A stretch of 64,000 nucleotides of DNA from Buxus sempervirens. Its lineage: Eukaryota > Streptophyta > Magnoliopsida > Buxales > Buxaceae. A program made the position numbers and the translations under genes. This document shows positions 69 through 63,922 of the stretch, piece by piece. Location of the stretch: positions 8,602,150 through 8,666,149 of the forward strand of contig OX387188.1 of the NCBI GenBank assembly GCA_947561395.2, in the 5' to 3' direction. Every line of letters begins with the position of its first letter. Position 1 is the stretch's first letter. Below the pieces are notes generated by a model. The model had not been told where the DNA came from, did not search any database, and saw nothing but the letters and a program-made list of their open reading frames with translations.

Positions 69-106
69 GAGTCGCCACCATTCAATTTAAGGTGTGAATG
101 AACACC
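69..106 (-). other. U5 pseudoknot-like fold plus PBS-like 9-mer, LTR A
   Basis: On the minus strand: GGTGT (plus 102-106), stem strand TCATTC (96-101), ACACC (91-95), A/T-rich linker (84-90), GAATGG (78-83), then TGGCGACTC (69-77). GGTGT can pair with ACACC, and TCATTC with GAATGG (one G-U), giving H-type pseudoknot topology. The 9-mer matches the first nine bases of the PBS used by both Ogre elements in this window. Function is inferred. Confidence 0.6.
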
Positions 107-12874: not shown

Positions 12875-12914
12875 GAGTCGCCACCATTCAGATTTTTGGG
12901 TGTGAATGGACACC
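12875..12914 (-). other. U5 pseudoknot-like fold plus PBS-like 9-mer, LTR B
   Basis: Minus strand order: GGTGT (plus 910-914 of 12,000), CCATTC (12904-12909), ACACC (12899-12903), linker (12890-12898), GAATGG (12884-12889), TGGCGACTC (12875-12883). Both stems are perfect, and the second stem ends exactly where the 9-mer begins. Confidence 0.62.
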
Positions 12915-14710
12915 AAAAGATTAGAAATAAGCAAAAAGAGCTAAAAAGTAAATTCTAGAGTAAAAATAACTCTACTTGAAAATCAAATCTAGAGATGGGT
13001 AAGGGGATTAGATTATGAACGGGGGAAAGTGTTAGGCACCCCCATTCACCCACACAAGGTGGTTGCCAAGTGTTTGTTCATGCAAAAAAATAAGAAAGCT
13101 TGCTAAAAATCATTAAAAACCTTGAAAAAGGACAAGTGTATGATATCTTCACATGAAGATCCAAATGGATTCCAGATCCTCTCTTATGTCAATATCATTT
13201 CTGGAATATCAACAATAAATGGAAATCAAAGCAAAGATTGCACAAAGCCAAGTTGAGTTAAATTCGGAAAATTCGGTAAAAGATAATGCCATTTGTCTTG
13301 AAATCATTCAAATCCAATTTTAAATTGAATCAAACCAAATCCATTTGAAAGATTATGTTAAATAAGAGACTCATGCAAAATTTCAAGTAAATCCGGTTGA
13401 AATCCTAAGAGTTATGCCTCCTTTAAAATTGCTGCTGGAGATAATTAAAAGTGGCAAGTAGGCAAGTTTGGAAAATCACCTAGAAAAATCGGCTCCATAT
13501 AAATTCATGAAATTTGGTGTGATTGCAGTCTGTATGGCCATATTTCAAACGAAACTAGCCTCATACAGAAATTCATTCGGATGTGCCTTGGGTGGTCTCC
13601 CGAATAGGCCCCGAAGATCACACATTTACCCAGAAAAGTGCTGATGAGCAGTTCTGAGTAAATCTGTTACCAACAACACAAATGGAGTCAAAACATTATG
13701 ACACCAACTGGATTTGAAAATAGACTCATAATGGAGTACCCAGAGACAAGAATCACTCAAATCGGATTTAAAACAAGTAGATGGCGCTCATTTGAAGTGA
13801 TAGGTTCAACAGTTTGACCTGAACTGACCTATCAACTTCGACAGAATGGTGTCAAAATTTTGCTTGATAGAAATTGATGCAATTTGGTTGGCATAAACTA
13901 GACAGCCTCACCTTTCCTATGGTTCTATAATCACTCTAAAATTCATCCGGACGACGAAGTTATAAGTGTCCGAAGTCGGGGTACAGTTGCTGTCAAGTTA
14001 AGCCATTTTTGAAGAAAACCAACTCCAAATAGTGATAAAGTGTGTGTGATCCGTGCAAGATTAATCAAAATCCTTTGAAAATCATTTGAAAACATTCCAG
14101 AATTGCTTGAGGCTATTTATTTCAGATTTATCACAATAAATGCAATAAATCCGAAATATGAGCCAATCCCGCCAAAATCACGTGCTATATATGTGTAAGT
14201 GTAAAAATCATTCCAACAACATAGCAAAGATAGCATGCATTCATATTAATCAAAATAGGGTTCTAAAAACAACCTAGGGTTCCGTTCCATTATCGTTTCT
14301 CTTAGTTCTCTCTCCCCGTTAAACACGGTTCTTCAAGATAATCTTAGGGTACTTTAAATATGGAACGGTTTATATAGATTCAAAAGGCTTATGCAAGAGA
14401 GGTTCTAGTACTAGGATCAATCCCCAGTCTCATTTCTCCTAGATCCCGCCTTCACGTTTTATGGCTAGGGGGAGTCTTGAGATACTTTGAGCCGGGGAAG
14501 GGTTTTCATACACACATCAAGGCCTTATTCTACAGAAAGGTAGAAGAAGAGATATAGATCTAGAAATGTAAAAACAGAAAATAAAAGATAGGTTTGAGGC
14601 TTACCTGGGTTCTGGAAGCAGTTCCACAGTGGTTACCATCTTCACTCGGAGTTCTTCTTGGCAAAACTTCTTGACAAGAGTTGTTGGCCATTTGCTTAAG
14701 AAGGAGCCTC

Positions 14711-15029: not shown

Positions 15030-15317
15030 GTAAAAAACTTATTTTCTCAAATTTTGTACTAACTTCCAAGGAGATATTGATTTTTGTTGATTATTGATCA
15101 TTTTTACTGTGCAATTTGGGGTGTCTACAGGCCGAGGTCCTACCAGGTGCCTGAACTTACATAATATGCCGCCTAAATAGAACTAATGAATTAGTGCGGT
15201 ACTATAGCTACAGATGGTCATATTCTACCATTACATCGAAATAGTTGTGTAAGACATGGGGAAAAAATCAATTGAATGACTTTCCTTTATCATCACACGG
15301 GCTCCATAAAAATCATG

Positions 15318-15356
15318 GAGTCGCCACCATTCCTTTTTAGGGTGTGAATGGACACC
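15318..15356 (-). other. U5 pseudoknot-like fold plus PBS-like 9-mer, LTR C
   Basis: Minus strand order: GGTGT (15352-15356), CCATTC (15346-15351), ACACC (15341-15345), A-rich linker (15333-15340), GAATGG (15327-15332), TGGCGACTC (15318-15326). Both stems are perfect. Confidence 0.62.
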
Positions 15357-25146: not shown

Positions 25147-25396
25147 TGTCAGCACCCCATTTTTGCACTATAAAATTGCCCAAGAAGCATATCTTAAACT
25201 GGCATATATGTGGGCACGTAAATCGAGGTTTTTATAGTGGACCCATCTTTTTGAAATAACAAGCCCATAACAAAGAGAATTCTTAACCGATTCCGATGCA
25301 CCGAACCGTGCTCAAATCGGATGTCAGACGGCTAAGTTATGAATAAAATAAATAAAGGGTAGTTTGGGGATTTTTACAAAACCGAAATTGGATGCC

Positions 25397-25434
25397 ACAT
25401 GGCAGCCACGTGTACACCATGGTGGCTGCCATGT
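25397..25434. repeat. 13-bp perfect palindrome with G-box, Ogre1 LTR
   Basis: ACATGGCAGCCAC (25397-25409) and GTGGCTGCCATGT (25422-25434) around a 12-bp centre. CACGTG occurs at 25407-25412. The same sequence lies in the 3' LTR at about 41066-41103. Confidence 0.8.
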
Positions 25435-25712
25435 AACCAATGACAAATTAAAATTTTGTGGGGTTGTTTTAGTAAATAATTAAGTTTCCTAATGGGGTTT
25501 CTTATGCAAATAAATAACAAAGTTAATAAAAGATTAAGATTAAAAAAATAATAATAATAAAAATAAACAAAGAGAAATGAGTTGGACGAATTGGTCCAAC
25601 TCATATTCTCTTGAGATATTGAAACTAAACCTAAAAAATATAAGCCTAATAAAAATGGGGGACAATATAGACTTTGACCAAACCTAAATGAATGAAGGGT
25701 TTAAGAGAGGAA

Positions 25713-25878
25713 TAGGAGTTAGGAGTTAGGAGTTAGGAGTTTAAGTGTTTAAGAGGAGAAGTTAAGAAAATGAGAGGTTTAAGAGAGGAAGAGGAGGAGT
25801 TAGGAGTTTAGGTGTTTAAGAGAGGAGTTAGGAGTTTAGGTGTTTAAGAAAGGAGTTAGGAGCTTAGGTGTTTAAAAG
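25713..25878 (+). repeat. Direct repeats upstream of the Ogre1 TATA box (5' LTR copy)
   Basis: A run of TAGGAGT 7-mers, then 28-bp units of the type GAGGAGTTAGGAGTTT plus AGGTGTTTAAGA. The 3' LTR (41386-41579) has one unit more. Confidence 0.85.
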
Positions 25879-25912
25879 GAGAAGTTAAGAAGTTGAATGG
25901 GTGAGAATCCTC

Positions 25913-25919
25913 TATAAAA
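25913..25919 (+). promoter_or_regulatory. TATA box of Ogre1 5' LTR
   Basis: TATAAAA in 'cctctataaaagggc', with the same context at 41614 in the 3' LTR. Confidence 0.7.
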
Positions 25920-27013
25920 GGGCTTGAAGTTGAGAGCAAAAGGGGAGGTAGGAAGAAGTGGAGAAAAGAAGAGGGACGTCTACTAGCAAGGAGGGAGAAA
26001 GGAAAACTGCTGTTCACGACACACCAAGGCTCCAAGACTTGATTTGAAGTGTCAATCCATAACAGGTGAGTCATTTGTTTAATACATTGTATGAGACCTC
26101 TCTTTCATTACAATTTTTGAGATAAGATTACATGATTGATGAGAGACATGTATATATGTTTGATGGCTTTGGGTAATTTTATCATGTAAAAAAAAAAAAA
26201 AAGACAAAGATGTAAAGTTCTGAATTTTTTTCCTGCATTAGGTTTGCACCTGTTTTCCAGATAAACTAATTTTTTTCACCTTGTTCTAGTTTGATTCAAT
26301 TCTGGAGTCCTTCATGAGATTTGTGGTATTTTTATTTTAGTTTAATCTAAAACTACGCTCGAGACCTTACACTATGAGTAGGTATTTTATTTTTAATTTT
26401 CTTTGGTTCAGATTTTCAATTGGAAATGTATAACAGTAACATTTGGAGTTTCATATCTCTTAAATGAAAATGAATTTTTGAAAACTGCTATAGGTTATTT
26501 TAGTGTTTAAAGTCATGATTCTAAGGAATCAAATTTTGCACAATTTGGTTAAGAATTGAGGGAGATATGAATCTTTGAATGTGGATAGCGCAGTAATTCA
26601 GGTTGTTTCATTTTGTTTGTTTCCTTTGTAAATTAGTAATTAGGCCATGGTTAAAAGTAGTTCAGGTGGTCTCATTTTCTTACTTTGTAAATTAGTAATT
26701 AGTTAATCTTGCATGATAAAAACAATAGAAAACAAAACAAAACAAAAAATAATAAATAATAAGAAAGGGAAAAAGCAAATGAAACAAGCATTGAAGCGAT
26801 GATTCTTTCTTGTGGTTGAAAATTGTTTTAGCATGGTTTTGTTTTGTTCATATGGTTTTACTTTCAATGTAATTTTGTGGAGGCCATGTACATATAGATT
26901 AATATTTGTTGTACGCTTAAAATGAAAAAAAATTAGAAAAGAAAAAAATAAAAATAATAAATAAGAGAGCTCATTAAATATCCAACTAATTTAAGGGAAT
27001 CCATTTCGATGGG

Positions 27014-27048
27014 ACAACCCAGGGTGTTCAAGGACTTCCCTAGGTTGT
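27014..27048 (+). other. U5 hairpin with conserved 13-nt loop, Ogre1
   Basis: ACAACCCAGGG and CCCTAGGTTGT (10 of 11 pairs) close the 13-nt loop TGTTCAAGGACTT. Ogre2 has the loop TGTCTACGGACTT on a different stem. Confidence 0.55.
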
Positions 27049-27096
27049 AATCGGGTCACTTAACCGGAATCACTGGTGCAGACCAAAAATCAACAA

Positions 27097-27132
27097 GGTG
27101 TCTACCTGCACCATTTCAGGTAGTGGCGACTC
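27097..27132 (+). other. U5 pseudoknot-like fold plus PBS-like 9-mer, Ogre1
   Basis: GGTG (27097-27100), T, CTACCTG (27102-27108), CACC (27109-27112), ATTT, CAGGTAG (27117-27123), TGGCGACTC (27124-27132). Stem 1 is GGTG/CACC and stem 2 is CTACCTG/CAGGTAG. The 9-mer repeats the start of the true PBS 59 bp downstream. Confidence 0.65.
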
Positions 27133-27182
27133 TATAACAGATTGTAACGCGCTTTTTCCGCGCGCCCGAGGTGCGCACAGCT

Positions 27183-27200
27183 TGGCGACTCTGCTGGGGA
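27183..27200 (+). other. Primer-binding site of Ogre1 (tRNA-Arg type)
   Basis: TGGCGACTCTGCTGGGGA, three bases after the LTR. It is complementary to a tRNA 3' end and matches the PBS type reported for Ogre elements (tRNA-Arg). Ogre2 has the same 18 bases. Confidence 0.85.
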
Positions 27201-28619
27201 CCGACCTAACCCGGTTTGATTAGTTGGATTATAATGGGTTTATTCTTTGCACATGTGCACACACTTGCACATACACGCACACTCTTTTTGTACATATGCA
27301 CACACTTGCACAAATGGGTCAAGGAAGATTTGCCTCCTTATTTAGTAAGTGTTGAATATACACAATAACATATTCTGGGGAGTTCTGTCATAAAGGACGA
27401 GATAATTGCCTAAGGAAATTGGTTTTTAAGTGGGACCACTGTGACCCCTCCAATTACCTGGGAACTCTCCCGGAACATTGTTTTGTGTACCAATTCATCA
27501 CTTTACTATATGAGACAGTGAAAATTCCTTCCCATGCACACATGTGCACTCACGCACACTGTGGTTTCTTTACATGCTTTGATATAAATTGTGTGGGGTG
27601 ACACGCGCGAGGGAGCCCGTGTGGGTGATCCGATTGAATGATTACCTAAACCTAGATCTCTCTAGCAGCCACCCTTCTTTATCGTATAAACAAATTTTGG
27701 GATGGTATTAGCCTCACGCGCCCTTGGCTTGCCAGGGAAAGCGAGGTAAAACATCCCCCCAGGTATCTGGATTCCTATAGCGCCACTGGTTTCTTGCCGT
27801 GGTATGCGAGGGTCTAATACTTGGCTCAGACCCTTGTAGGCATTTGTCTCGGGCTGGGTACCCTTTTCCCACCTAATGCTCTGATACACCCTACTATGTG
27901 AATGTGAATGTGAATGTGAATGATGAATGAAGTCTAAAACCCATGAGTCCATCAGGGGCAACAACCCTTGCCTCCTTTTGTATCAAATTGAGTAGACCCT
28001 AGATTCTGGGCTACCTCAGCCCTAAATTAGGGAGCTTACCTAAACTTTGATCAGGGGAACCACCCCAGATCCATGCATTGAGTCCGGAGAGCCGTGGGCC
28101 TCGACCCATTGAGTCCGTGGGAAGTATCTTGAGTCCGGATCAGTCTTTAAGCAGATGAAAGCAGGCCAGATCAGAACAAAGAAATTTGAACCCTAGATTT
28201 AGGCTTTTTTTTTTTAACCTACCCTTTTTGAATCAAATGTATCCTTTCTTAGAGTTCTCAACAACCGTAAGATTGCATTATTTTTTTTTAGCTTTTTGAA
28301 CATCATGTAATTTTCGCCCTAGCTGGCAAGTTGTAAGTTTAACATTAGTGGATGAAAGAGCAGATGAAAGGATAAGGCTGGTCAGGACTTAGGTGTGCTT
28401 CCTTACACAAGTATGTCTAGGAGTCATGCCTTGACAAGCACCAACCCTTAGGATCACACACTTTGTGTGCATGGTTTCTTTTCTTGTTTAGAGACATGAA
28501 ATATGGTGATGTCCCGTTCTTTTTTTTACTTGCTTTGATTTTACTGTTCATTACACTAATAGAGAACTTTCACGTTGAAATCCAAAATGACTTGGAACAC
28601 TAATTGGATAGTACAGTAC
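27201..28619 (+). other. Ogre1 5' leader
   Basis: Untranslated. Blocks are shared with the Ogre2 leader (50277-51806), for example 'gataattgcctaagg', 'ctctagcagcc', 'ttgggatggtattagc' and 'ggtttcttgccgtgg'. They are candidates for packaging or translation signals. A (GAATGT)n microsatellite lies at about 27897-27925. Confidence 0.65.
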
Positions 28620-30050
28620 ATGGCATCGTCTTCGTCTTCTGAGAAAACCAAGTTCCCTAGGATAGAGAAGTGTGCCTGGGATACTCCTTGGATCCGATCT
28701 TGGACACGGCAGCTCCAGGGGGATGAGCAAATTAAGTGGGAGGCACAATACCACATGAGGCAAACCTTATCCCTATTGAATGTGCCAATCAATTGGAACA
28801 TGATTCAGTCATCCTTGTTATTCTGGGATCCTCAATTTTCAGTTTTCCGATTTGGGACTATAGAGTTGACACCCACAATTGAGGAGTTAGAATTACTCCT
28901 CAGGTTTCGTGATCGTGGAGAACCCGCCAGGCCAAACCTCAAAGACAGTTACAAGAATGAAGCTTGTACTTTCTTTGGCCTCTCGAGGGAAGAATTCCAG
29001 ACTTTAGGAGGTGACAAATCATTCACGAGGGTCTCCAAGAAATTCCTCGCAGAAAAGATAAGGAACAAAAAGCAGGCAAGACCCCGTGTTTGGTTGGACA
29101 CCTTCACCCTTGTGGTTCTGTCACAAATTTTTTTTCCAACTGGGGGAGACACCATTAATTTGGCCCTCATGGAAATTGTGGATCAACTCTCGGTTGGATA
29201 CCGGATCATGCCACTGATACTTGCTCAACTCTATCATGCCTTAACCTTGTCCAAGAATGGAACCAGAAGGTTTCAAGGGTGCGCTCCCCTTCTTCATATA
29301 TGGCTGCAAGACCATCTGATGGTGGCAGAACCCATTAGTGACAGATATGGGCTAGTCCGTGACAACGTCACATACATGGCCCGAAGAGAAATACATCCAG
29401 ACTTACCTACTAGAGAGGAGTGGCTGAACTACTTTCTACACCTAGATGAGGATGTTGATATCAGGTGGTGGGGAACCTTCCATTTCACTTATACCCCCAT
29501 TTTAGCCTTCAGAGATAGGAGATGCCTGGCCTTAATTGGCCTCACACATGCTGTACCGTACTATCCAATAAGAGTTTTGAGACAGTTTGGGAAACCGCAG
29601 GGAATCCCCCTTGAGGATGATGCGACTAATCTGACAGGCCCGCTTTCGAAGGAGTTGAGGAAACAGTTACTGATAGAGTGGAAGACTGTGCGCAAGCACG
29701 AGCATGATATATTCTCGAAACATAATATTCGAGAATATAAGCAAAAAATGGCTAGGGATTTTGGCCATGACGGCGTCCCACCTCTCCAGACTGGCATACC
29801 CAAGGACATTCCGGTTCCGCCCCCTGATATCTATGGAGATAGGGTGGCCGAACTGCAGGAGGCACACTCCCGTATCCATTTAACCTACATTGAATCGGAG
29901 CGGGAGAGTAGGCAGGCCAATGAGGCCCTCCAGCATCAATTGAGTGGCGTGCGCAAGCACGCAGATGAGGACAGGCGTTTGCGGAATAAACTTCTGCGCG
30001 CCCTTAGGAGGCAGGATGTGTCCTCCTCTTATGATGACCCACCTAGTTAG
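28620..30050 (+). CDS. Ogre1 ORF1 protein, function unknown
   Basis: 476 aa. The start was chosen at MASSSSSEKTKFPRIEKC because the Ogre2 homologue begins at the same residue; an ATG 45 bp upstream is not conserved. An ORF before gag is the hallmark of Ogre elements, and its role is unknown. The central part (about residues 60-300) reads 'LLFWDPQFSVFRFGTIELTPTIEEL...FRDRGEP', reminiscent of plant-mobile-domain or DUF7745-like proteins found in many plant transposons. This is an impression, not a proven match. The last about 70 residues are charged and heptad-like (AELQEAHSRIHLTYIESER), a probable coiled coil. There are no membrane segments. The protein is intact here and broken in Ogre2. Confidence 0.85.
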   Translation: MASSSSSEKTKFPRIEKCAWDTPWIRSWTRQLQGDEQIKWEAQYHMRQTLSLLNVPINWNMIQSSLLFWDPQFSVFRFGTIELTPTIEELELLLRFRDRGEPARPNLKDSYKNEACTFFGLSREEFQTLGGDKSFTRVSKKFLAEKIRNKKQARPRVWLDTFTLVVLSQIFFPTGGDTINLALMEIVDQLSVGYRIMPLILAQLYHALTLSKNGTRRFQGCAPLLHIWLQDHLMVAEPISDRYGLVRDNVTYMARREIHPDLPTREEWLNYFLHLDEDVDIRWWGTFHFTYTPILAFRDRRCLALIGLTHAVPYYPIRVLRQFGKPQGIPLEDDATNLTGPLSKELRKQLLIEWKTVRKHEHDIFSKHNIREYKQKMARDFGHDGVPPLQTGIPKDIPVPPPDIYGDRVAELQEAHSRIHLTYIESERESRQANEALQHQLSGVRKHADEDRRLRNKLLRALRRQDVSSSYDDPPS

Positions 30051-30765: not shown

Positions 30766-30819
30766 TCATTATAAGCAAGCTCCGGTTCATTAGGGCATGA
30801 GCCAAGAGGTTCTCTTTCC

Positions 30820-31241
30820 TTGTCGCAAGCGACTAAAATAGATCAAATTCTTTAGGTTCTCTTTCCTTGCTGACTTGACGCAGCTAAAACAGATCAATCC
30901 CTTGGGTTCTCTTTCCTAGTCGTCCACCAGACGACTAAAACAGACCACTAGACATTGGGTTCTCTCTCCCAATTGCCTTTGTGCAACTAAAATAGATCAC
31001 TACCTTGGGTTCTCTTTCCCAGTCGTCCACCAGACGACTAAAACAGACCACTAGACATTGGGTTCTCTCTCCCAGTTGCCTTTGTGCAACTAAAATAGAT
31101 CACTACCTTGGGTTCTCTTTCCTAGTTGTCCATAGACGACTAAGACAGACCAGTAGACATAGGTTTTCTCTCCCAATTGCCTTTGTGCAACTAAAAATGA
31201 TACATTTTTATAGATTCCCCCTAAGTTGTTTCCACACAGCT
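30820..31241 (+). repeat. Stem-loop array between ORF1 and gag, Ogre1
   Basis: Nine copies of a pattern: GGTTCTCTYTCCC (or similar), a short stem-loop, then AAAAYAGAYC. Stem-loops: 30822-30833, 30869-30884, 30918-30936 (AGTCGTC/GACGACT), 30971-30988, 31021-31039, 31074-31091 (AGTTGC/GCAACT), 31124-31141, 31175-31192 and 31224-31241. Stem sequence varies but pairing is mostly kept, with G-U or compensatory changes. Confidence 0.75.
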
Positions 31242-40819: not shown

Positions 40820-42880
40820 TGTCAGCACCCCATTTTTGCACTATAAAATTGCCCAAGAAGCATATCTTAAACTGGCATATATGTGGGCACGTAAATCGAG
40901 GTTTTTATAGTGGACCCATCTTTTTGAAATAACAAGCCCATAACAAAGAGAATTCTTAACCGATTCCGATGCACCGAACCGTGCTCAAATCGGATGTCAG
41001 ACGGCTAAGTTATGAATAAAATAAATAAAGGGTAGTTTGGGGATTTTTACAAAACCGAAATTGGATGCCACATGGCAGCCACGTGTACACCATGGTGGCT
41101 GCCATGTAACCAATGACAAATTAAAATTTTGTGGGGTTGTTTTAGTAAATAATTAAGTTTCCTAATGGGGTTTCTTATGCAAATAAATAACAAAGTTAAT
41201 AAAAGATTAAGATTAAAAAAATAATAATAATAAAAATAAACAAAGAGAAATGAGTTGGACGAATTGGTCCAACTCATATTCTCTTGAGATATTGAAACTA
41301 AACCTAAAAAATATAAGCCTAATAAAAATGGGGGACAATATAGACTTTGACCAAACCTAAATGAATGAAGGGTTTAAGAGAGGAATAGGAGTTAGGAGTT
41401 AGGAGTTAGGAGTTTAAGTGTTTAAGAGGAGAAGTTAAGAAAATGAGAGGTTTAAGAGAGGAAGAGGAGGAGTTAGGAGTTTAGGTGTTTAAGAGAGGAG
41501 TTAGGAGTTTAGGTGTTTAAGAGAGGAGTTAGGAGTTTAGGTGTTTAAGAAAGGAGTTAGGAGCTTAGGTGTTTAAAAAGAGAAGTTAAGAAGTTGAATG
41601 GGTGAGAATCCTCTATAAAAGGGCTTGAAGTTGAGAGCAAAAGGGGAGGTAGGAAGAAGTGGAGAAAAGAAGAGGGACGTCTACTAGCAAGGAGGGAGAA
41701 AGGAAAACTGCTGTTCACGACACACCAAGGCTCCAAGACTTGATTTGAAGTGTCAATCCATAACAGGTGAGTCATTTGTTTAATACATTGTATGAGACCT
41801 CTCTTTCATTACAATTTTTGAGATAAGATTACATGATTGATGAGAGACATGTATATATGTTTGATGGCTTTGGGTAATTTTATCATGTAAAAAAAAAAAA
41901 AAAGACAAAGATGTAAAGTTCTGAATTTTTTTCCTGCATTAGGTTTGCACCTGTTTTCCAGATAAACTAATTTTTTTCACCTTGTTCTAGTTTGATTCAA
42001 TTCTGGAGTCCTTCATGAGATTTGTGGTATTTTTATTTTAGTTTAATCTAAAAATACGCTCGAGACCTTACACTATGAGTAGGTATTTTATTTTTAATTT
42101 TCTTTGGTTCAGATTTTCAATTGGAAATGTATAACAGTAACTTTTGGAGTTTCATATCTCTTAAATGAAAATGAATTTTTGAAAACTGCTATAGGTTATT
42201 TTAGTGTTTAAAGTCATGATTCTAAGGAATCAAATTTTGCACAATTTGGTTAAGAATTGAGGGAGATATGAATCTTTGAATGTGGATAGCGCAGTAATTC
42301 AGGTTGTTTCATTTTGTTTGTTTCCTTTGTAAATTAGTAATTAGGCCATGGTTAAAAGTAGTTCAGGTGGTCTCATTTTCTTACTTTGTAAATTAGTAAT
42401 TAGTTAATCTTGCATGATAAAAACAATAGAAAACAAAACAAAACAAAAAATAATAAATAATAAGAAAGGGAAAAAGCAAATGAAACAAGCATTGAAGCGA
42501 TGATTCTTTCTTGTGGTTGAAAATTGTTTTAGCATGGTTTTGTTTTGTTCATATGGTTTTACTTTCAATGTAATTTTGTGGAGGCCATGTACATATAGAT
42601 TAATATTTGTTGTACGCTTAAAATGAAAAAAAATTAGAAAAGAAAAAAATAAAAATAATAAATAAGAGAGCTCATTAAATATCCAACTAATTTAAGGGAA
42701 TCCATTTCGATGGGACAACCCAGGGTGTTCAAGGACTTCCCTAGGTTGTAATCGGGTCACTTAACCGGAATCACTGGTGCAGACCAAAAATCAACAAGGT
42801 GTCTACCTGCACCATTTCAGGTAGTGGCGACTCTATAACAGATTGTAACTCGCTTTTTCCGCGCGCCCGAGGTGCGCACA
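40820..42880 (+). mobile_element. 3' LTR of Ogre1
   Basis: Near-identical to the 5' LTR, 28 bp longer because of one extra repeat unit (41386-41579). TATAAAA at 41614. U5 pseudoknot-like fold at 42798-42833. It is followed by the target duplication ccatt. Confidence 0.92.
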
Positions 42881-47055: not shown

Positions 47056-47775
47056 TGTAAGCACCTCATTTTTGCGCTCCCAAAAAGCCAGAAAATGTAA
47101 AACCCGGCTAAAAAGTCAAACCCTGAGATGCGAAAAGTTGACCTTTTAATCAAATGAAAATTGGCCACCTTGATCTATCCCATTGGATAAAGAATCTCGA
47201 CGCGGTTCCAACGCAACTGGGTTTGCAGGAATCGGAGTCCGGATGAAGGTTCTGCGGGCGGTCAAACTCGAAGGAAAGCCAAGAGTTGACTTTTCCTTGA
47301 TTTCCGTGCCAAATACCTTGATCTATCCCATTGGATAAAGAATCTCGACGCGATTCCAACGCAACTGGGTTTGCTGGAATCGGAGTCCGGATGAGGGTTC
47401 TGCGGGCGATCAAACTTGAGGATGAGCCGAAAGTTGACTTTTCCTCGAACCCCGTGCCAAGTGCTTAACCCTATGTCATTGAATAGAGGGCTCCAATACG
47501 AGTTCAACGCAATTGAGTTTGCTCAAATCGGAGATCAGATGAAAGAGATATGAGCTGTCGAAGTTTCCGGGCAGCAAAAGCCGGAAACTGCACACGTGGC
47601 GCAGGAACTGCACACGTGGCTGCCAACGCAGCGAAATATCTCGGGGACTAAATCTTGAATATCCAAAAACCTCAAGGACTAAACAAAAATTCGTACGGGG
47701 CAATCCGTAGATATCCAAAAGTGTCAAATCGGTCGAATCGGTCAAGTCGAAGGGCAAATCCGTAATTTTTTGATT

Positions 47776-48023
47776 TGTATCCGGCATTTAATGCCGGATA
47801 CAGGTGCCCCTATGTATATCCGGACTCCAAGGCCGGATACAAAGATTTGCTCGGCGAGATTCGCGTCGATTCTCCGACAAATTCGCGGCGGAAATCAATT
47901 TTGCCAATTATTATGTTTTGTATCCGGACTCCAAGTCCGGATACAAAGGCAGCTTAATGTATCCGGACTCCAAGTCCGGATACACAAGATATATAGTGTA
48001 TCCGGACTCCAAGTCCGGATACA
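47776..48023 (+). repeat. U3 array of TATCCGG/CCGGATA palindromes, Ogre2 LTR
   Basis: Five palindromes end 11 bp before the TATA box. 47776-47802 (13-bp perfect arms, 1-nt centre), 47817-47839 (one mismatch), 47917-47947 (14-bp perfect arms, centre CCA), 47958-47984 and 47997-48023 (12-bp perfect arms, centre CCA). Repeated in the 3' LTR at about 61443-61690. Confidence 0.85.
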
Positions 48024-48033
48024 TTAAGTTTTC

Positions 48034-48040
48034 TATAAAA
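48034..48040 (+). promoter_or_regulatory. TATA box of Ogre2 5' LTR
   Basis: TATAAAA in 'ttctataaaagagggc', 978 bp from the LTR start. Same offset in the 3' LTR (61701). Confidence 0.7.
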
Positions 48041-49055
48041 GAGGGCAGCAGCCCCCTTTCCAAGGGTTGGCTCATTCCACCCTTCTTGGACTTGCTTTGC
48101 CCCCTTTTGCCTCTCCGAACCAGCCTCCTTCCAACCCTCTTTGCCTCCACCACCACCCCAAATCACCCCAAGGTGATCCCACCTTTCTTTCTTCTTCTTC
48201 TCCTTCACTTCCACTCCAAGAGGAGGAGGAGCAAGTGTTGTTGGTGCAAGGAAAAGCAGGCCCCAGTTGCTGTCCAGCTTCAAGGAGGAGCTTCCACACT
48301 AGGTAGCAACCCAGGAACCACGAGGTGAGTCTTTTTGACACGTTTGCTTATACATATATGAAAATGGTGTTGTTCTAAGCAAGTTAATGAGCTTGTTCTC
48401 CTCTTTTACCACAAATCTGTCATAAATGCTTGCATGGCATGAACTTGCCCTTCATTTCATCACGTGGGAGTCTCTGAAGGTAAAAGAATTCCCGCGTTTA
48501 GTTCTATAAGAGAATGGGAGGAGGTCCACCCCATTTAGAGTTTCTTTAACCCAGTGTTTTTTATTTCCTTTTGCTTTCCTTATGATGGTCTCTAGCAATA
48601 TTTTTCGTCCATTAAGAGAGAACATGTTCTCCCTACTTCTTCATCCAATGTATCCCCCATGTAATCCCCCCTCCCTTCCCTTCTTTAGATGCTTGTAGGC
48701 CAGGAGAATAAGTGTAGGAATTTCGGCCATGTGTAGCATTTTAGGTGATGCATGCTAGCTTCATTTGATTTCTTATGAGCATATATGCTAGTTGGTCCTT
48801 TTGTTCACATGCCTGCATGCACACTTGCACACACCCCCCATGACCCACTATTTTATGAGAATGCATCAGCATGATCCCCGTCCCCAAGGCCCCTTTTACC
48901 TTGCTGTAAACCCAAGGAGAGAAGCCCAGTGTGGCTTCTCCCAAATCTGAACCTACGCGGGCCCATCAGAGGGCCCACCAGACTTCCTAAACCCTCCTGG
49001 GAACCCCTGTAATCCATCCCGAATGGCAGAATCAAGAAAAAAAGCCATCTCAGGG

Positions 49056-49200
49056 TGATCCGGCAACTCAGGCCGGATCACCTGTGGCCCAGGCATATCC
49101 GGCAACTAAGGTCGGATAACCTGTGGCCCCTGTGTATCCGGCCAATGAGCCAGGATCACTTGCAGACCCTGTGTATCCGGCCTGAGTTGCCGGATACACA
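49056..49200 (+). repeat. Transcribed palindromes downstream of TATA, Ogre2 LTR
   Basis: Four more of the same family. 49056-49080 (9-bp perfect arms TGATCCGGC/GCCGGATCA), 49096-49118 (with one G-T), a degenerate copy at about 49130-49157, and 49170-49200 (12-bp perfect arms). Confidence 0.8.
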
Positions 49201-50082
49201 CAGAAAATGTGATTTTTGTATTTTGATGCTCTTTGCCGAATTGCATGATGATTTTTACTAAAACCATTGAACCAACAGGGCTTCCGGGCCACCCGGAAAC
49301 CCAACTTGGGACATGGACCGTTGGTCCAACTCGGAACACCCGTGGGCCTTCCAACGGGGCCCACCAAGCCCAATAAACACCAAAGCATGCAACTTAAGCA
49401 AGATTAAGTGAAATGAGCCGATTGAACCGGGCGGGCCGAGCCCAATGCGGCCCACCCATACCTTGATGTGAATGTATGGAATGCATAAAATGCCTGGTTT
49501 GGCCGAGACCATGGGCCAGGGCCTGTCGGGCCCGCTAAAGCCCACCAAGTGAACCAAGTTAGGGTGCAATCCCTAATTTCCAAGGAACTGGGCTTTCAAA
49601 GCCCAAAGCCGGGATCATGGGCCCCAAGCCCAATGACCGGCCCACTTTGGCTCAAATATAAACAAGATAAGTCTAAAATACCCTCGGCCACCATGGGGGC
49701 CCACCAAAGGGGCCCACAGATCCGTCCGGCCCACCCTTGCATGAAAACAACCTAATAATTCAAATCTAAACCTAAAGCCAAATCAATTCACTAACCAAAG
49801 CCCACAGGGCCTCCTAGGGTTAGACAGAGGCCCACTAAGGGCACACGGGCCAACTCAAGCCCATCCAGGACATCGGTCGGGCCTTCCAACGGGGCCCACC
49901 CAATCAGACTCAGAAAGCCAAAGATAAGCAAAGATAAAATCAACTAAAGGGACCCACACCACTCAGGTGGTCCCACCAATACCCAACAAAAATGCATGCT
50001 GGATTAGGAATCGGGTGAGAAACCAAAGAAAAGCTGACTCAAATTAGGGAACCCACGAGACCCGTCATCCGACGGGGCGGAT

Positions 50083-50105
50083 TGGGGTGTCTACGGACTT
50101 CCCCA
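50083..50105 (+). other. U5 hairpin with conserved 13-nt loop, Ogre2
   Basis: TGGGG/CCCCA closes loop TGTCTACGGACTT. The counterpart in Ogre1 is at 27014-27048. A further perfect hairpin CCCGTC-ATCC-GACGGG lies just upstream at 50061-50076. Confidence 0.5.
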
Positions 50106-50182
50106 GCCCGCAACCGAGAACCAACCTTAGAATCTCAAAGCCGCAGACCCCAAAAGCCCTAAATAAACAAGATTAGGCACCC

Positions 50183-50218
50183 AGGTGTCCGCCTGCACCC
50201 CATCAGGCGGTGGCGACT
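50183..50218 (+). other. U5 pseudoknot-like fold plus PBS-like 9-mer, Ogre2
   Basis: GGTG (50183-50186), T, CCGCCTG (50188-50194), CACC (50195-50198), CCAT, CAGGCGG (50203-50209), TGGCGACTC (50210-50218). Two base pairs of stem 2 differ from Ogre1 in a compensatory way. The 3' LTR copy is at 63851-63886. Confidence 0.65.
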
Positions 50219-50258
50219 CCGAATTACCCCGTGCCGCGTTTCCCACGCGCGCACAGCC

Positions 50259-50276
50259 TGGCGACTCTGCTGGGGA
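50259..50276 (+). other. Primer-binding site of Ogre2 (tRNA-Arg type)
   Basis: TGGCGACTCTGCTGGGGA, three bases after the LTR, identical to Ogre1. Confidence 0.85.
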
Positions 50277-51806: not shown

Positions 51807-52862
51807 ATGGCATCCTCATCCTCATATGAAAGAACCCGTTTCCCTAGGATAGAGAAGTGCGCCTGGGATACCCCCTGGATCCGTTCTTGGACAAGACAGC
51901 TCCAAGGGAGTGAGCAGATTGAATGGGAGCACAAATACCACATGGGACAGACTTTGTCCCCGTTAAATGTGCCGATCAACTGGGACATGATCCAAGCAGC
52001 TTTGCTTTTCTGGGATCCCCAGCTTTCAGTGTTTCGATTCGGGATCAATGAGTTGACTCCCACAATTGAGGAACTTGACATGTTCCTCCGATTTCGCGAC
52101 TTAGGAGAACCCGCTAGGCCAAGCCTCAAAGAAAGCTACAAGAATAAAGCTTGTGTTTTCTTTGGCCTCTCAAGGGGAGAATTCCAGACCTTAGGAGGTG
52201 ACAAGTCATTCACTAGGGTCTCCAAAACATTCCTTGCTGAAAAAATAAGAAACAAAAAGCAGGAAAGACCCCGGGTTTGGTTTGACACCTTCACCCTTGT
52301 GGCTCTGTCGCAAATCTTCTTTCCAGCTGGGGGGGACACCATTAATTTGGCCCTCATGGAAATTGTGGATCAACTCAGGGCAGGATACCGAATCATGCCA
52401 CTGATCCTAGCTCAACTGTTCCACTCCCTAACTTTGTCCAAAAATGGAACCCGGAGGTTTCAAGGGTGCGCTCCCCTTCTCCACATTTGGCTGCAAGACC
52501 ACCTGATGGTGTCATCACCTGTCAGTGCACACTACGGCCTAGTCCGTGACAACATACATCGGTTGGCTCAAAGAGAGATCCGACCAGACCTACCCACTCG
52601 TGAGGATTGGTTCAACCACTTTCTCCACCTGAAGGGAGAAACAGACATTCGATGGTGGGGCACATATAACATCCCCTACACCCCCATTATACCTTTCAAA
52701 AAAAAAAAAGAAAGAGAGGGACTTGCCTTGATAGGCCTTACCCATGCGGTGCCATACTATCTGATTCGGATTCTGAGACAGTTTGGGAAACCGCAGGGAG
52801 TCCCGATCCAAGACAACCTGAGCAGTCGGACTGGTCCACTCACTAAGGGACTGAGGTCATAG
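51807..52862 (+). pseudogene. Ogre2 ORF1, truncated
   Basis: 351 codons from MASSSSYERTRFPRIEKC, collinear with residues 1 to about 350 of Ogre1 ORF1 ('LLFWDPQLSVFRFGINELTPT', 'FRDLGEPARPSLKESYK', 'RVSKTFLAEKIRNKKQ'). It ends at an in-frame TAG where Ogre1 has Gln. A second stop follows, and the about 120-residue charged C-terminal region is missing. An A-rich in-frame expansion (FKKKKERE) lies near codon 305. The truncation did not prevent a very recent transposition, so Ogre2's own full-length ORF1 is dispensable or supplied in trans. Confidence 0.8.
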
Positions 52863-53203
52863 TTACCGGTAGAATGGACGAGGGTGTGCGTGTACTGATG
52901 GTTTGTCGTATTTGTGATCAGCATGATATACTTGACGCCGCAGCGGCGCCTCTTAATTGAAGCATGGTTTCCTTTTCACACTGCTATATTGTTTAAATTT
53001 TAACAAAACAAAAACTTGGAATAAAAGAATTAATTCCCTCCAATAGGGCAACTCGGTCTCAGACAGACCGCCTCTTCTTAAATAATTGCGATATTCCTGG
53101 TCGCTGCGACCACCTAATTCCCTTTATTTGCATCCCCCCATGGAGATCGCAAAACCCGGCAAGTGTTTAAAAACAAGACATAGAACTCAGAGCGTCTAAA
53201 CTA

Positions 53204-53775
53204 GGGTTCTCTTTCCCAGTCGCTTCCAAGCGACTAAAATAGATCAGTCTTCAAAAATAGGGTTCTCTCTCCCAGTTGCCTACGGGTAGCTAAAATAGAT
53301 TCGGTCAGTAGGGTTCTCTTTCCCAGTCGCTTCCAAGCGACTAAAATAGATCAGTCTTCAAAAATAGGGTTCGCTCTCCCAGTTGCCTACGGGTAGCTAA
53401 AATAGATTCGGTCAGTAGGGTTCTCTTTCCCAGTCGCTTCCAAGCGACTAAAATAGATCAGTCTTCAAAAATAGGGTTCGCTCTCCCAGTTGCCTACGGG
53501 TAGCTAAAATAGATTCGGTCAGTAGGGTTCTCTTTCCCAGTCGCTTCCAAGCGACTAAAATAGATCAGTCTTCAAAAATAGGGTTCTCTCTCCCAGTTGC
53601 CTACGGGCAGCTAAAATAGATTCGGTCATTAGGGTTCTCTTTCCCAGTCGCTTCCAAGCGACTAAAATAGATCAGTTTTCAAAAATAGGGTTCTCTTTCC
53701 CAGTCGCCTCCGAGCGTCTGAAATAGATCAGTTTTCAAAAATCAGGTTCTCTCCCCTTGTTACCTACGGGTAGCT
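53204..53775 (+). repeat. 107-bp tandem array with alternating stem-loops, Ogre2
   Basis: About five units. Each has two stem-loops, both preceded by GGGTTCTCTYTCCC (or close) and followed by AAAATAGAT. Type A is AGTCGCT-TCCA-AGCGACT (53218, 53325, 53432, 53539, 53646, degenerate 53702). Type B is AGTTGCC-TACG-GGTAGCT (53274, 53381, 53488; with G-C replacing G-U at 53595; with A-U replacing G-U at about 53759). Type B closes a C(UACG)G tetraloop, an unusually stable RNA motif. Confidence 0.82.
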
Positions 53776-56260: not shown

Positions 56261-58190
56261 AGGCTCCCGGCCGTGGCATGCAATCAAATTCCAAAAACGC
56301 CGATCACATCGGCCATCCTTTTGCATAATATGATTGCCTGTTTTGCTTATGCTTTCTTTTCTTTTAAATTCTGAACTAGACAGCATATTCCTTTTTTTCA
56401 AGATTATGAAATCTTTTGGGAAATCACTGAAGTGTTCAGCCACACCCAGGCATGACCGTGATCTTGGAACAAACCTGAACAATCAAAATTTGACAAATGG
56501 AAACGTGCCAAACAACACGAACTGTGCGGGTTTCAACATAGCTAAGGGATCCCCCAACACCGCATTTGAACCCGTCCATGCCAAACAAAGGGGCAAATTG
56601 GGATATAGGAAAAGAGAAAAGAAAGGGCAAGGTGCCCATACCAGTCAAAGGTCACTGACATGATCCAGGATCAATGATCTCAATGAAGTGATGAGAGGCC
56701 ATCTTTTGGCTAAGATACTTCAAATAAATTCCGCTAGTTAAACGTGTTGAGCTTGATCGTCTCATTTCTAACCCACGTTATGTCTAGCCACCCCAAACTG
56801 GGGTAAAGTCAAAAAGCAAAAAAAAAAAAAAAATGATGAACAAAGAAGAAGAATGGCTCTCGAGCCAGCTAATCATGCAAAAGTAATTAAGTGTTACATT
56901 CTCTGTGAAAGGAAGAAAGGCCATCCTTGATCTCCTCCAAAAATCATCTGACACCAGATGAAACCCTAGCAAAACACTTTGAGCCTAACAATTCCTTCAT
57001 TTAACCTACCATGTCCTGTCTCCAAAACTGGGGCATAAAGATTCGTACAGTTGGAGACGCAAAGAGGAGGAAGGTGGAGATAGGACAGAGCGAAAAGCAC
57101 CCTAAGAACAAAGGGGACAGAAATGAGGAAAGGAAAGAGCCCCCAGAAAGCAAGAACTTCAAGAAAAAACTGAGGGCAGTCCCTCGAAAGAAAAGAAAAG
57201 AAAAGAAAAAAGAAGAGAACAAATGCCGGGGAAAACCCCGAGGGCAAGAATCAAGAATTGGGGCAGAATACCCGAGAAAGAAGGGAAAGAAAGAAAAGAA
57301 CAAAAATGGAAAAATGAGAAGAAGCTAAGTTGCAGGAACAAAGGTGAAGCGAGCCCTAACCAAAAAAGGGGTGGACAAGACATGGCTCTTAACCCATACG
57401 TCAATTTCGAGCCTTTATATCATTTCTTTTGAACCCTTGAGCCCAGCCTACATTTCGTCCTACTATGAAGTCCTTTTTGATTGCAGAGAATGTAACATCG
57501 AATCTTGGGCAAGCTGGCAATGACAGAACCATAAAAGACAGAGAAGAACTTTGGCTAGACATAATGGTTACCCATAGAGTGAAGCTGTATAGGGTTTGAG
57601 CCTGTTTTTCCTTCATTTCTAAACACTGGAAACAAAGCCTACATTTCGTCCTACGGATAAGTCCTCTCTGATCATTGTGTGTCATGATCCATGGAAATTG
57701 TCAAGGCCCTAAAACTGGGGTGGGGCACCAAACCCAAATGAGAGAATCAATCAAAAAGAAAAAAAATCCCTTACACAACCCCCAACCAAGGGTAGGGGAA
57801 AAGGAGAAAGAAAAAGAGAGAGAGAAAATCAAAGAAAAACCAGGGCGGGGCAGTACCAAAGAAACCCCCTGAACCCAAAATAACTCCCCTCATTTCAACC
57901 GGGGGCATGCCATTGAAGGCCAAAATGTTGAGACACCTACAGGAAGTGCCGGATGACACATTTTCCTAAGTCTAAATGAGAGTGTCAGGTAACTGACCCA
58001 AAGATTGCTGGTCTCGCCATGGACCCACTTCAGAAAGAAAAATCCGAACATTTGGTGAATCCCCAAAAGGTTTCAAAAAAGGAGAAATTACTTGGATTTG
58101 CACATAATTTTTGATGAAACAAATGAATTCTAATTGACCCAATTTCACATGAACTTCTACAGGTACTGACAGAACTTGGGACAGACAGAA
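56261..58190 (+). other. Ogre2 3' region, pol replaced by non-coding DNA
   Basis: No pol. Repeated motifs: AAACTGGGG (about 56796, 57024, 57711), 'acatttcgtcctac' (57450, 57640), and 'gagaggccatctt' or 'gaaaggccatcctt' (56693, 56925). The same words occur after the Ogre1 stop codon, so this is expanded 3' UTR. Confidence 0.65.
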
Positions 58191-59240
58191 AAGCCATCAT
58201 TGCGTATCCACACGCTGATGCGCAAAAGAACCGTCACCGTGTATTCACACATGGGACGCAGAGAAGCCATCACTGCGTATTCACACGCTGATGTGCAAAA
58301 GAACCGTCACCGTGTATTCACACATGGGACGCAGAGAAGCCATCACTGCGTATTCACACGCTGATGCGCAAAAGAACCGTCACCGTGTATTCACACATGG
58401 GACGCAGAGAAGCCATCACTGCGTATTCACACGCTGATGCGCAAAAGAACCGTCACCGTGTATTCACACATGGGATGCAGAAAAGCCATCACTGTGTATT
58501 CACACGCTGATGCGCGAAAGAACCGTCACCATGTATTCACACATGGGACGCAGAAAAGCCATCACTGCGTATTCACACGCTGATGCGCGAAAGAACCGTC
58601 ACCATGTATTCACACATGGGACGCAGAAAAGCCATCACTGCGTATTCACACGCTGATGTGCAAAAGAACCGTCACCGTGTATTCACACATGGGACGCAGA
58701 GAAGCCATCACTGCGTATTCACACGCTGATGCGCAAAAGAGCCGTCACCGTGTATTCACACATGGGACACAGAAAAGCCATCACTGCGTATTCACACGCT
58801 GATGCGCAAAAGAACCGTCACTGTGTATTCACACATGGGACGCAGAGAAGCCATCACTGCGTATTCACACGCTGATGCGCAAAAGAACCGTCACCGTGTA
58901 TTCACACATGGGACGCAGAGAAGGCATCACTGCGTATTCACACGCTGATGCGCAAAAGAACCGTCACCGTGTATTCACACATGGGACGCAGAGAAGCCAT
59001 CACTGCGTATTCACACGCTGATGCGCAAAAGAACCGTCACCGTGTATTCACACATGGGACGCAGAGAAGCCATTACTGCGTATTCACACGCTGATGCGCA
59101 AAAGAACCGTCACCGTGTATTCACACATGGGACGCAGAGAAGCCATTACTGCGTATTCACACGCTGATGCGCGGAAAACCGTCACCGTGTACTCACACAT
59201 GGGACGCAGAAAGAGTCATCACCGTGTATTCACACATCGG
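58191..59240 (+). repeat. 73-bp satellite array in Ogre2
   Basis: About 14 head-to-tail copies. Period 73 bp, measured from successive 'aagccatcac' words at 58191, 58264, 58337 and 58410. Each unit is a dimer of about 37 and 36 bp halves sharing CCRTCACYGYGTATTCACAC. Copies are very similar. Frames drift because 73 is not a multiple of three, so it is not coding. Two stray dimers lie at about 59540-59680. Confidence 0.92.
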
Positions 59241-63700: not shown

Positions 63701-63922
63701 CTGACTCAAATTAGGGAACCCACGAGACCCGTCATCCGACGGGGCGGATTGGGGTGTCTACGGACTTCCCCAGCCCGCAACCGAGAACCAACCTTAGAAT
63801 CTCAAAGCCGCAGACCCCAAAAGCCCTAAATAAACAAGATTAGGCACCCAGGTGTCCGCCTGCACCCCATCAGGCGGTGGCGACTCCGAATTACCCTGTG
63901 CCGCGTTTCCCACGCGCGCACA
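60723..63922 (+). mobile_element. 3' LTR of Ogre2
   Basis: 3,200 bp, same length as the 5' LTR, about four substitutions. It carries the same palindromes, TATA box (61701) and U5 folds. Confidence 0.93.

Follow-up and report, generated by a model that had tools for sequence, protein, structure and literature searches.

The window analysed here, a 64,000-nt stretch of the Buxus sempervirens genome (676.5 Mb), contains two long Ogre-type elements, Ogre1 and Ogre2, and on its minus strand three more LTR stretches, A, B and C. No adjacent primer site accompanies A, B or C within the window; relatives of these stretches that carry the same motif elsewhere in the genome lie upstream of a tRNA-Arg primer site. 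The positions of the LTRs and of the features discussed below are collected in Table 1.

Table 1. LTRs and leader features of the five LTR types in the 64,000-nt window.
Feature	Position	Strand	Evidence or remark
Ogre1 5' LTR	25147..27179	+	LTR pair comparison
Ogre1 hairpin H0 (CCAT/ATGG)	27001..27012	+	Compensatory changes
Ogre1 hairpin HI	27014..27048	+	11-position covarying stem, loop TGTTCAAGGACTT
Ogre1 tRNA-body complementary block	27064..27084	+	Contains CCGGAATCACTGGT and GCAGACC
Ogre1 S1 5' strand, GGTG	27097..27100	+	Would pair with 27109-27112; conserved, without covariation
Ogre1 S2 5' strand, CTACCTG	27102..27108	+	Sequence and covariation
Ogre1 S1 3' strand, CACC	27109..27112	+	Sequence
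Ogre1 S2 3' strand, CAGGTAG	27117..27123	+	Adjoins the 9-mer without a gap
Ogre1 9-mer, TGGCGACTC	27124..27132	+	Complement of tRNA-Arg nts 68-76
Ogre1 9-mer-to-LTR-end stretch	27133..27179	+	Predicted terminal hairpin; z 0.02 in L094, not stabler than shuffles
Ogre1 primer binding site	27183..27200	+	Complement of tRNA-Arg(ACG) nts 59-76
Ogre1 3' LTR	40820-42880		98.4% identity to the 5' LTR
Ogre1 3' LTR motif	42798..42833	+	Same motif as in the 5' LTR
Ogre2 LTRs	47056-50255 and 60723-63922		99.9% identity
Ogre2 hairpin H0 (CCCGTC/GACGGG)	50061..50076	+	
Ogre2 hairpin HI	50077..50111	+	H0+HI z -4.03
Ogre2 tRNA-body complementary block	50129..50149	+	AGAATCTC (nts 43-50), CCGCAGACC (nts 29-37, C opposite A34)
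Ogre2 5' LTR motif	50184..50219	+	S1 50184-50187/50196-50199, S2 50189-50195/50204-50210, 9-mer 50211-50219
Ogre2 primer binding site	50259..50276	+	
Ogre2 3' LTR motif	63851..63886	+	Same motif as in the 5' LTR
B LTR motif	12875..12914	-	S2 CCATTC/GAATGG, 9-mer 12875-12883
B hairpin HI	13015..13049	-	
B candidate tRNA-complementary block	12989..13004	-	Weak in the B family
C LTR motif	15318..15356	-	S2 CCATTC/GAATGG, 9-mer 15318-15326
A LTR motif	69..106	-	S2 TCATTC/GAATGG, first pair T.G, 9-mer 69-77

A primer site complementary to tRNA-Arg is a trait of Ogre elements. Domain searches of the Ogre1 open reading frames gave the coding order plant mobile domain (PMD) ORF, gag, reverse transcriptase (RT), RNase H, second RNase H and integrase; the matches RVT_1, RT_RNaseH, RVT_3 and then rve place a second RNase H (aRH) between RNase H and integrase. 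The PMD (PF10536) was matched at 28575-30047 in Ogre1 and at 51807-52859 in Ogre2, where PMD and gag were identified in the three ORFs searched and a second RNase H was not found in those three. A related L014-type element shows RVT_1, RVT_3/RNase_H and rve, corresponding to RT, second RNase H and integrase, and its integrase is identical to that of Ogre1 at 119 of 171 positions. The aRH of Ogre1 and the L014-type element, the PMD of Ogre1 and Ogre2 and the tRNA-Arg primer site place these elements in the Tat clade, Ogre lineage. In the L001-type stretch searched for pol every match was sub-threshold, and B and L001 are therefore assigned to their lineage by leader and primer site. In the sections of PMC6317226 consulted, an aRH between RNase H and integrase is a trait of the Ogre lineage shared with Retand, a plant mobile domain is encoded by an extra ORF in 57% of Ogre elements, and Arg is listed among the primers of non-chromoviruses. 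The Ogre elements also contain tandem repeats at window positions 58174-59235, 53202-53728 and 30808-31196, with units of about 73-75, 107 and 97 bp respectively, and an L014-type Tat element encodes a G-patch domain 5' of its RT (L195:1-879, plus strand).

The sequence-only reading of the window had reported one motif in all five LTR types: GGTG, a stem strand, CACC, a linker and the complementary stem strand, followed without a gap by the 9-mer TGGCGACTC. On rechecking the letters, all five copies are present, and both LTRs of each Ogre element carry the motif, with 9-mers starting at 27124 and 42825 (Ogre1) and at 50211 and 63878 (Ogre2). The Ogre2 copy had been placed at 50183-50218, one base too early. 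As proposed, the 9-mer copies the primer site's first half; it is exactly complementary to the 3' end of tRNA-Arg(ACG). The primer site starts 59 bp after the 9-mer start in Ogre1, as had been given, and 48 bp after it in Ogre2, where 49 had been given. From motif start to LTR end there are 83 bases in Ogre1 and 72 in Ogre2. All of this may be U5; when 38 stretches further upstream were scanned for TATAWA, no consistent promoter emerged.

The motif is abundant in the genome. The pattern GGTGT-N(5-10)-CACC-N(8-22)-TGGCGACTC has 17,861 matches (8850 and 9011 on the two strands) and its reversed form none. Among the 100 matches listed of these 17,861, the downstream stem (S2) lies flush with the 9-mer with at least six pairs (G.U counted) in 92, and the spacer between GGTGT and CACC is 7 nt in all 100, the pattern permitting 5-10. 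Exact copies of the primer site number 3,184 in the genome, with no match to the reversed control. Absence of the 9-mer from most Tat LTRs had been named as evidence against the proposal. The 9-mer was found within one mismatch upstream of the primer site in all 50 primer-site loci sampled (43 exact), a set of 30 returned loci and 20 hand-picked listed places, all on contig C1, with many near-identical copies and seven from one apparent tandem array; 2000 shuffles produced 20 occurrences with one mismatch and no exact one. The 9-mer starts 48-85 bp upstream of the primer site across the 50 loci. On C1, at G000:C1:8477725-8569677, seven same-strand primer sites of one LTR family are spaced 15,318-15,327 bp apart, as if a 15.3-kb unit were repeated in tandem.

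In a viral contig collection, searched for relatives, the same motif pattern has 52 matches, used only as chance controls, and none has a flush stem of at least five pairs; the exact primer site has a single match there (L031), with no motif upstream, and a variant primer site has none. No Rfam family matched the window at gathering thresholds. A doubled form of what we take to be the initiator-Met primer-site pattern, at similar spacing, matched the genome once, the count covering doubled sites only. Replacing the 9-mer by a TGGCGCC-type half-site gave eight matches against one for the reversed pattern; by eye, six resemble altered Arg copies and two chance occurrences. No family that combines the motif with such a half-site, or with another primer tRNA, was found in the genome.

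S2 is maintained by compensatory change, as the sequence-only reading had asserted for the five LTRs. In 40 of 46 distinct motif strings, most of them recovered by a pattern that fixes the upstream stem (S1), 61 cells show a double change within this one genome; shuffles average 19.6 and none of 500 reaches 61, and controls with the partner strand slid gave at most 18. Changes on both sides are seen at six of the seven pairs, and the seventh is unpaired in 10 of the 40 strings. On two of five covariation measures the strings do no better than shuffles, with 6 pairs changed on both sides where shuffles give 5.7, and 12 pair types where they give 14.4. Among 100 listed Ogre-type copies, the second pair is C-G in 47, T-A in 47, T.G in three and C.A in three, and the third is G-C in 88, A-T in seven, G.T in three and A.C in two; these copies are related by descent, and p-values for such pair counts are descriptive only. 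Family differences in S2 among the sampled copies are transitions, which pass via G.U. A base of the other class occurs at S2 positions 2 and 3 in 74 and 107 of the 17,861 matches, by eye mostly as single-site decay. When the upstream partner is left free, 272 of 2000 shuffles also reach at least six flush pairs, and a longer flush helix with a different upstream partner is possible in eight of 50 loci; the case for S2 therefore rests on the fixed partner and the covariation.

The H-type pseudoknot proposed earlier fares unevenly: S2 covaries, but S1 is conserved without covariation. Two S1 pairs are invariant and two depart only via unpaired cells, in strings that come mostly from the S1-fixing pattern. 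In the 50 primer-site loci, where S1 was not fixed, 45 have GGTG/CACC, one has GGTG/CACT and four are weaker. The L028-like family has an S1 of only 3 bp, and its predicted nested hairpin (-15.1) is stabler than the rough pseudoknot estimate. Judged by S1 conservation, exact spacing and rough energies, a pseudoknot is likely.

What had not been noticed before is that S2 is part of a wider covarying leader, with two hairpins, H0 and HI, upstream. HI terminates 93-162 nt upstream of the last base of the 9-mer. The pattern used for the HI loop constrains the base class of the innermost pairs as well; it matched 69 of 73 loci (52 distinct) and missed L085, L103, L110 and L125. In HI 95.1% of cells are paired and 68 are doubly changed, compared with a shuffle mean of 14.6 (largest 27) and at most 20 in slid controls; one stem position shows G-C, A-T, T-A and C-G. 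H0, directly before HI, varies in step (CCAC/GTGG, CCCGTC/GACGGG, CTGGTT/AACCAG), with a mean score of 11.5 against 4.7 when shuffled, and is absent in three of the 52. Folding energies of H0+HI in 12 copies gave z values from -0.66 to -4.13. Most of the folded copies are predicted to form a terminal hairpin that separates the 9-mer from the primer site; its z values run from +0.33 to -3.53, and it clearly beats shuffles in few of the 12. At window positions 15119 and 17416 (plus strand), GGGGTGTCTACA resembles the start of the Ogre2 HI (GGGGTGTCTACGGACTTCCCC), and an LTR start with GGGGTGTCTACA may form an HI-like hairpin.

By sequence, the primer is tRNA-Arg(ACG). Two identical genes for this tRNA (L128, L129) yield, with CCA added, a 3' end that is the exact complement of the 18-nt primer site, and among 27 distinct tRNA sequences of the genome only this one is complementary to the 9-mer. 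In the fossil L130 (G000:C19, near 15089946) the primer site continues, beyond one differing base, into 20 nt that are exactly antisense to tRNA-Arg nts 38-57, which supports tRNA-Arg(ACG) as the primer. L130 also shows head-to-head LTR ends, and its second LTR piece begins at the joint of S2 and the 9-mer.

The sequence-only reading had suggested an auxiliary tRNA-Arg site at the 9-mer, and that suggestion can be widened: between HI and the motif lies a third stretch of the leader complementary to the same tRNA. In Ogre1, CCGGAATCACTGGT agrees with the antisense of tRNA-Arg nts 39-52 at 12 of 14 positions (scored on the identical L094 stretch), and GCAGACC corresponds by eye to nts 29-35, with C opposite A34. 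The L117 block CCAGAATCACTGGTTC matches the antisense of nts 37-52 at 15 of 16 positions, and in Ogre2-like copies AGAATCTC precedes CCGCAGACC. The corresponding blocks are CCGCAGACCAG in L028-like copies (one change in L102), ATCTCTGGTT in L007-like copies and (A)ATCTCTGG in L014-like copies. By eye, the blocks are largely colinear with the antisense tRNA. Ogre2-like and L028-like copies have C opposite tRNA position A34, which in the mature tRNA-Arg(ACG) we take to be inosine.

Complementarity to the tRNA body was scored in 43 of 62 distinct stretches, sorted into eight family groups after the complementarity had been seen, the groups sharing ancestry. With C scored for position 34, shuffled tRNA bodies reached the observed mean per 1000 trials in 0 (Ogre1-like), 1 (Ogre2-like), 6 (L028-like), 25 (L106-like), 6 (L014-like), 3 (L007-like), 125 (A-like) and 32 (B/L001-like) cases. 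A natural control, scored with plain A34, drew on 32 of the 62 tRNA places listed in this genome; with tRNA-Arg(ACG) added, they make 27 distinct sequences, several of them of one kind. The blocks match tRNA-Arg(ACG) better than any control tRNA in six of the eight groups; it ranks second in the B/L001-like group and twelfth in the A-like group, and its summed score is 72.3 against 57.6 for the next tRNA and a median of 53.5. The complementarity goes beyond chance in the Ogre-like, L007-like and L014-like groups, and not in the A-like group, which has no tRNA-Arg preference. The B/L001-like block is weak and its best match is frequently to the D-arm, to which CCTTACCCAT is complementary. Across related groups, the sequence evidence for the block is strong in the Ogre-like families and weaker in families B and A.

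We suggest that these LTRs end in ~180-270 nt of sequence specifying a structured RNA leader, which would serve to initiate reverse transcription and dock tRNA-Arg at several sites; to this reading we give a probability of roughly 45%. The leader would run, in order, through H0, HI, the block directed at the anticodon, variable and T-arm side of tRNA-Arg(ACG), the H-type pseudoknot, the 9-mer and the terminal hairpin to the 18-nt primer site immediately beyond the LTR. The 9-mer would address the same part of the tRNA as the primer site does, and the block would pair with another part. tRNA-Arg might thus be recruited by the block, after which the 3' strand of its acceptor would pair with the 9-mer and stack end to end on S2, so that its 3' OH would abut the pseudoknot and be held there in a poorly extendable state. 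From this parking place the tRNA end would transfer to the longer primer site, where extension would begin. The calculated duplex energies (-15.7 kcal/mol for the 9-mer, -39.3 for the primer site) favour such a hand-over, the primer-site duplex being far the stabler.

Part of these data could also be read as a checkpoint for RT, in which the pseudoknot is the first strong roadblock past the terminal hairpin and tRNA docking on the 9-mer is secondary; the halted cDNA would share letters with the tRNA 3' end and might be held, re-annealed or template-switched. S2 is flush with the 9-mer, hence a halted cDNA would end in GAGTCGCCA, and the breakpoints of the LTR remnants L130, L199 and L200 fall no more than a few nt from the joint of S2 and the 9-mer. 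Such breaks account for three of five matches at the joint, the remaining two being L198, which is no LTR, and L201, which carries a small change; a single control position within the same region shows none in 14 (Fisher p 0.010). L130 had, however, prompted the breakpoint test, and without it the comparison is two of four against 0 of 14 (p 0.039). The breakpoints are suggestive at most: the cases are few, the control position is a single one, and other recombination might yield the same joints; the tRNA-body block is left unexplained, and we hold this reading to be unlikely. L199 and L200 can be read as U3 starts (TGTCTACAG after a GGGG or GGG tract) that run into the 9-mer with hardly anything between, as though a single jump had removed U3-R. 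Equally, the leader might sort genomic RNA, as an element for packaging, dimerization or translation, with the 9-mer kept for a protein or an intramolecular contact. H0, HI and S2 varying in step would suit this, as would the Ty1 5' pseudoknot, which in the parts of PMC4974528 consulted contains a major Gag binding site, an encapsidation role having proved impossible to show. This account predicts neither the identity of 9-mer and primer site nor that the block should be most complementary to that primer tRNA in six of eight groups, and is in our view doubtful.

That the conserved motif stretch is instead a transcription-factor or promoter site in the DNA, with its pairing incidental, would agree with the near invariance of GGTG and CACC and with a transcription start that is unmapped; two-sided changes that preserve the pairing of S2, HI and H0 are not expected of a DNA site, which makes this very improbable. 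The sequence-only reading had itself allowed that the 9-mer might be a relic of an earlier LTR boundary; it might also be left over from a duplicated primer site. The 9-mer agrees letter for letter with part of the primer site, with one further primer-site letter in 41 of 50 loci and two in three. A relic would, however, be expected to show more primer-site letters or a CA end, and neither is present in the 50 loci: the match stops at 9-11 nt (no extra letter in six of 50), a stem strand rather than a CA end precedes the 9-mer, which sits flush on a covarying stem, and the 9-mer is unaltered in 43 of the 50, although the bases that follow differ among families. The relic explanation thus fits poorly, and we regard it as scarcely tenable.

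A more elaborate form of the docking leader would have it read the mature primer in several parts, with a contact to the anticodon loop that sets C against inosine 34, a 9-nt parking site stacked on the pseudoknot, hand-over, and a checkpoint at that pseudoknot where halted cDNA mimics the tRNA 3' end; taken as a whole this is unlikely. If the docking leader is right, a hugely copied class of elements (17,861 pattern matches) has a retrovirus-like initiation complex in its own LTR end, visible through comparative genomics alone and a plant counterpart of the HIV-1 primer activation signal. The leader might also serve as a sequence signature for solo and broken Tat LTRs.

To our knowledge, the loading and positioning of primer tRNAs in plant LTR retrotransposons have been little studied. 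A literature search of open-licence papers, mostly by title and the start of the abstract, found no such leader described for plant elements; a search with the primer-site string gave no match, and the 9-mer matches listed looked unrelated by title. A U5 inverted-repeat stem of Rous sarcoma virus is named in PMC3601003. That stem is a hairpin at the LTR end, beside the primer site, and the Buxus terminal hairpin resembles it in this; the Buxus hairpin, however, has the 9-mer on one side and the primer site on the other, and its statistical support is mixed. For the Tat-clade elements Ogre and Retand, the sections of PMC6317226 drawn on here describe neither a structured leader nor a second primer-site copy. 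Several tRNA-binding segments are found in Ty1 and Ty3, and pairing in the Ty1 5' pseudoknot is required for efficient reverse transcription (both from excerpts of PMC11381356 and PMC4974528). The two parts of the Ty3 primer site lie at opposite ends of the genome and the Ty1 parts lie in the GAG ORF with a long-range pseudoknot, whereas the Buxus parts lie within or just past one LTR end, and the Buxus 9-mer repeats the primer site rather than extending it. In their relation to the tRNA, the block and the 9-mer resemble the A-rich loop and the primer activation signal of HIV-1. In the portion of PMC13191261 consulted, segments upstream of the HIV-1 primer site, in a structured leader, can pair with the body of the tRNA that serves as primer: an A-rich loop contacts the anticodon loop of tRNA-Lys3, the primer activation signal contacts its TpsiC arm, and anticodon modification matters. 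That portion describes no primer-site copy flush on a pseudoknot, and compared with HIV-1 the Buxus block extends to the variable and T-arm side of its tRNA and, in Ogre2-like copies, sets a C opposite A34.
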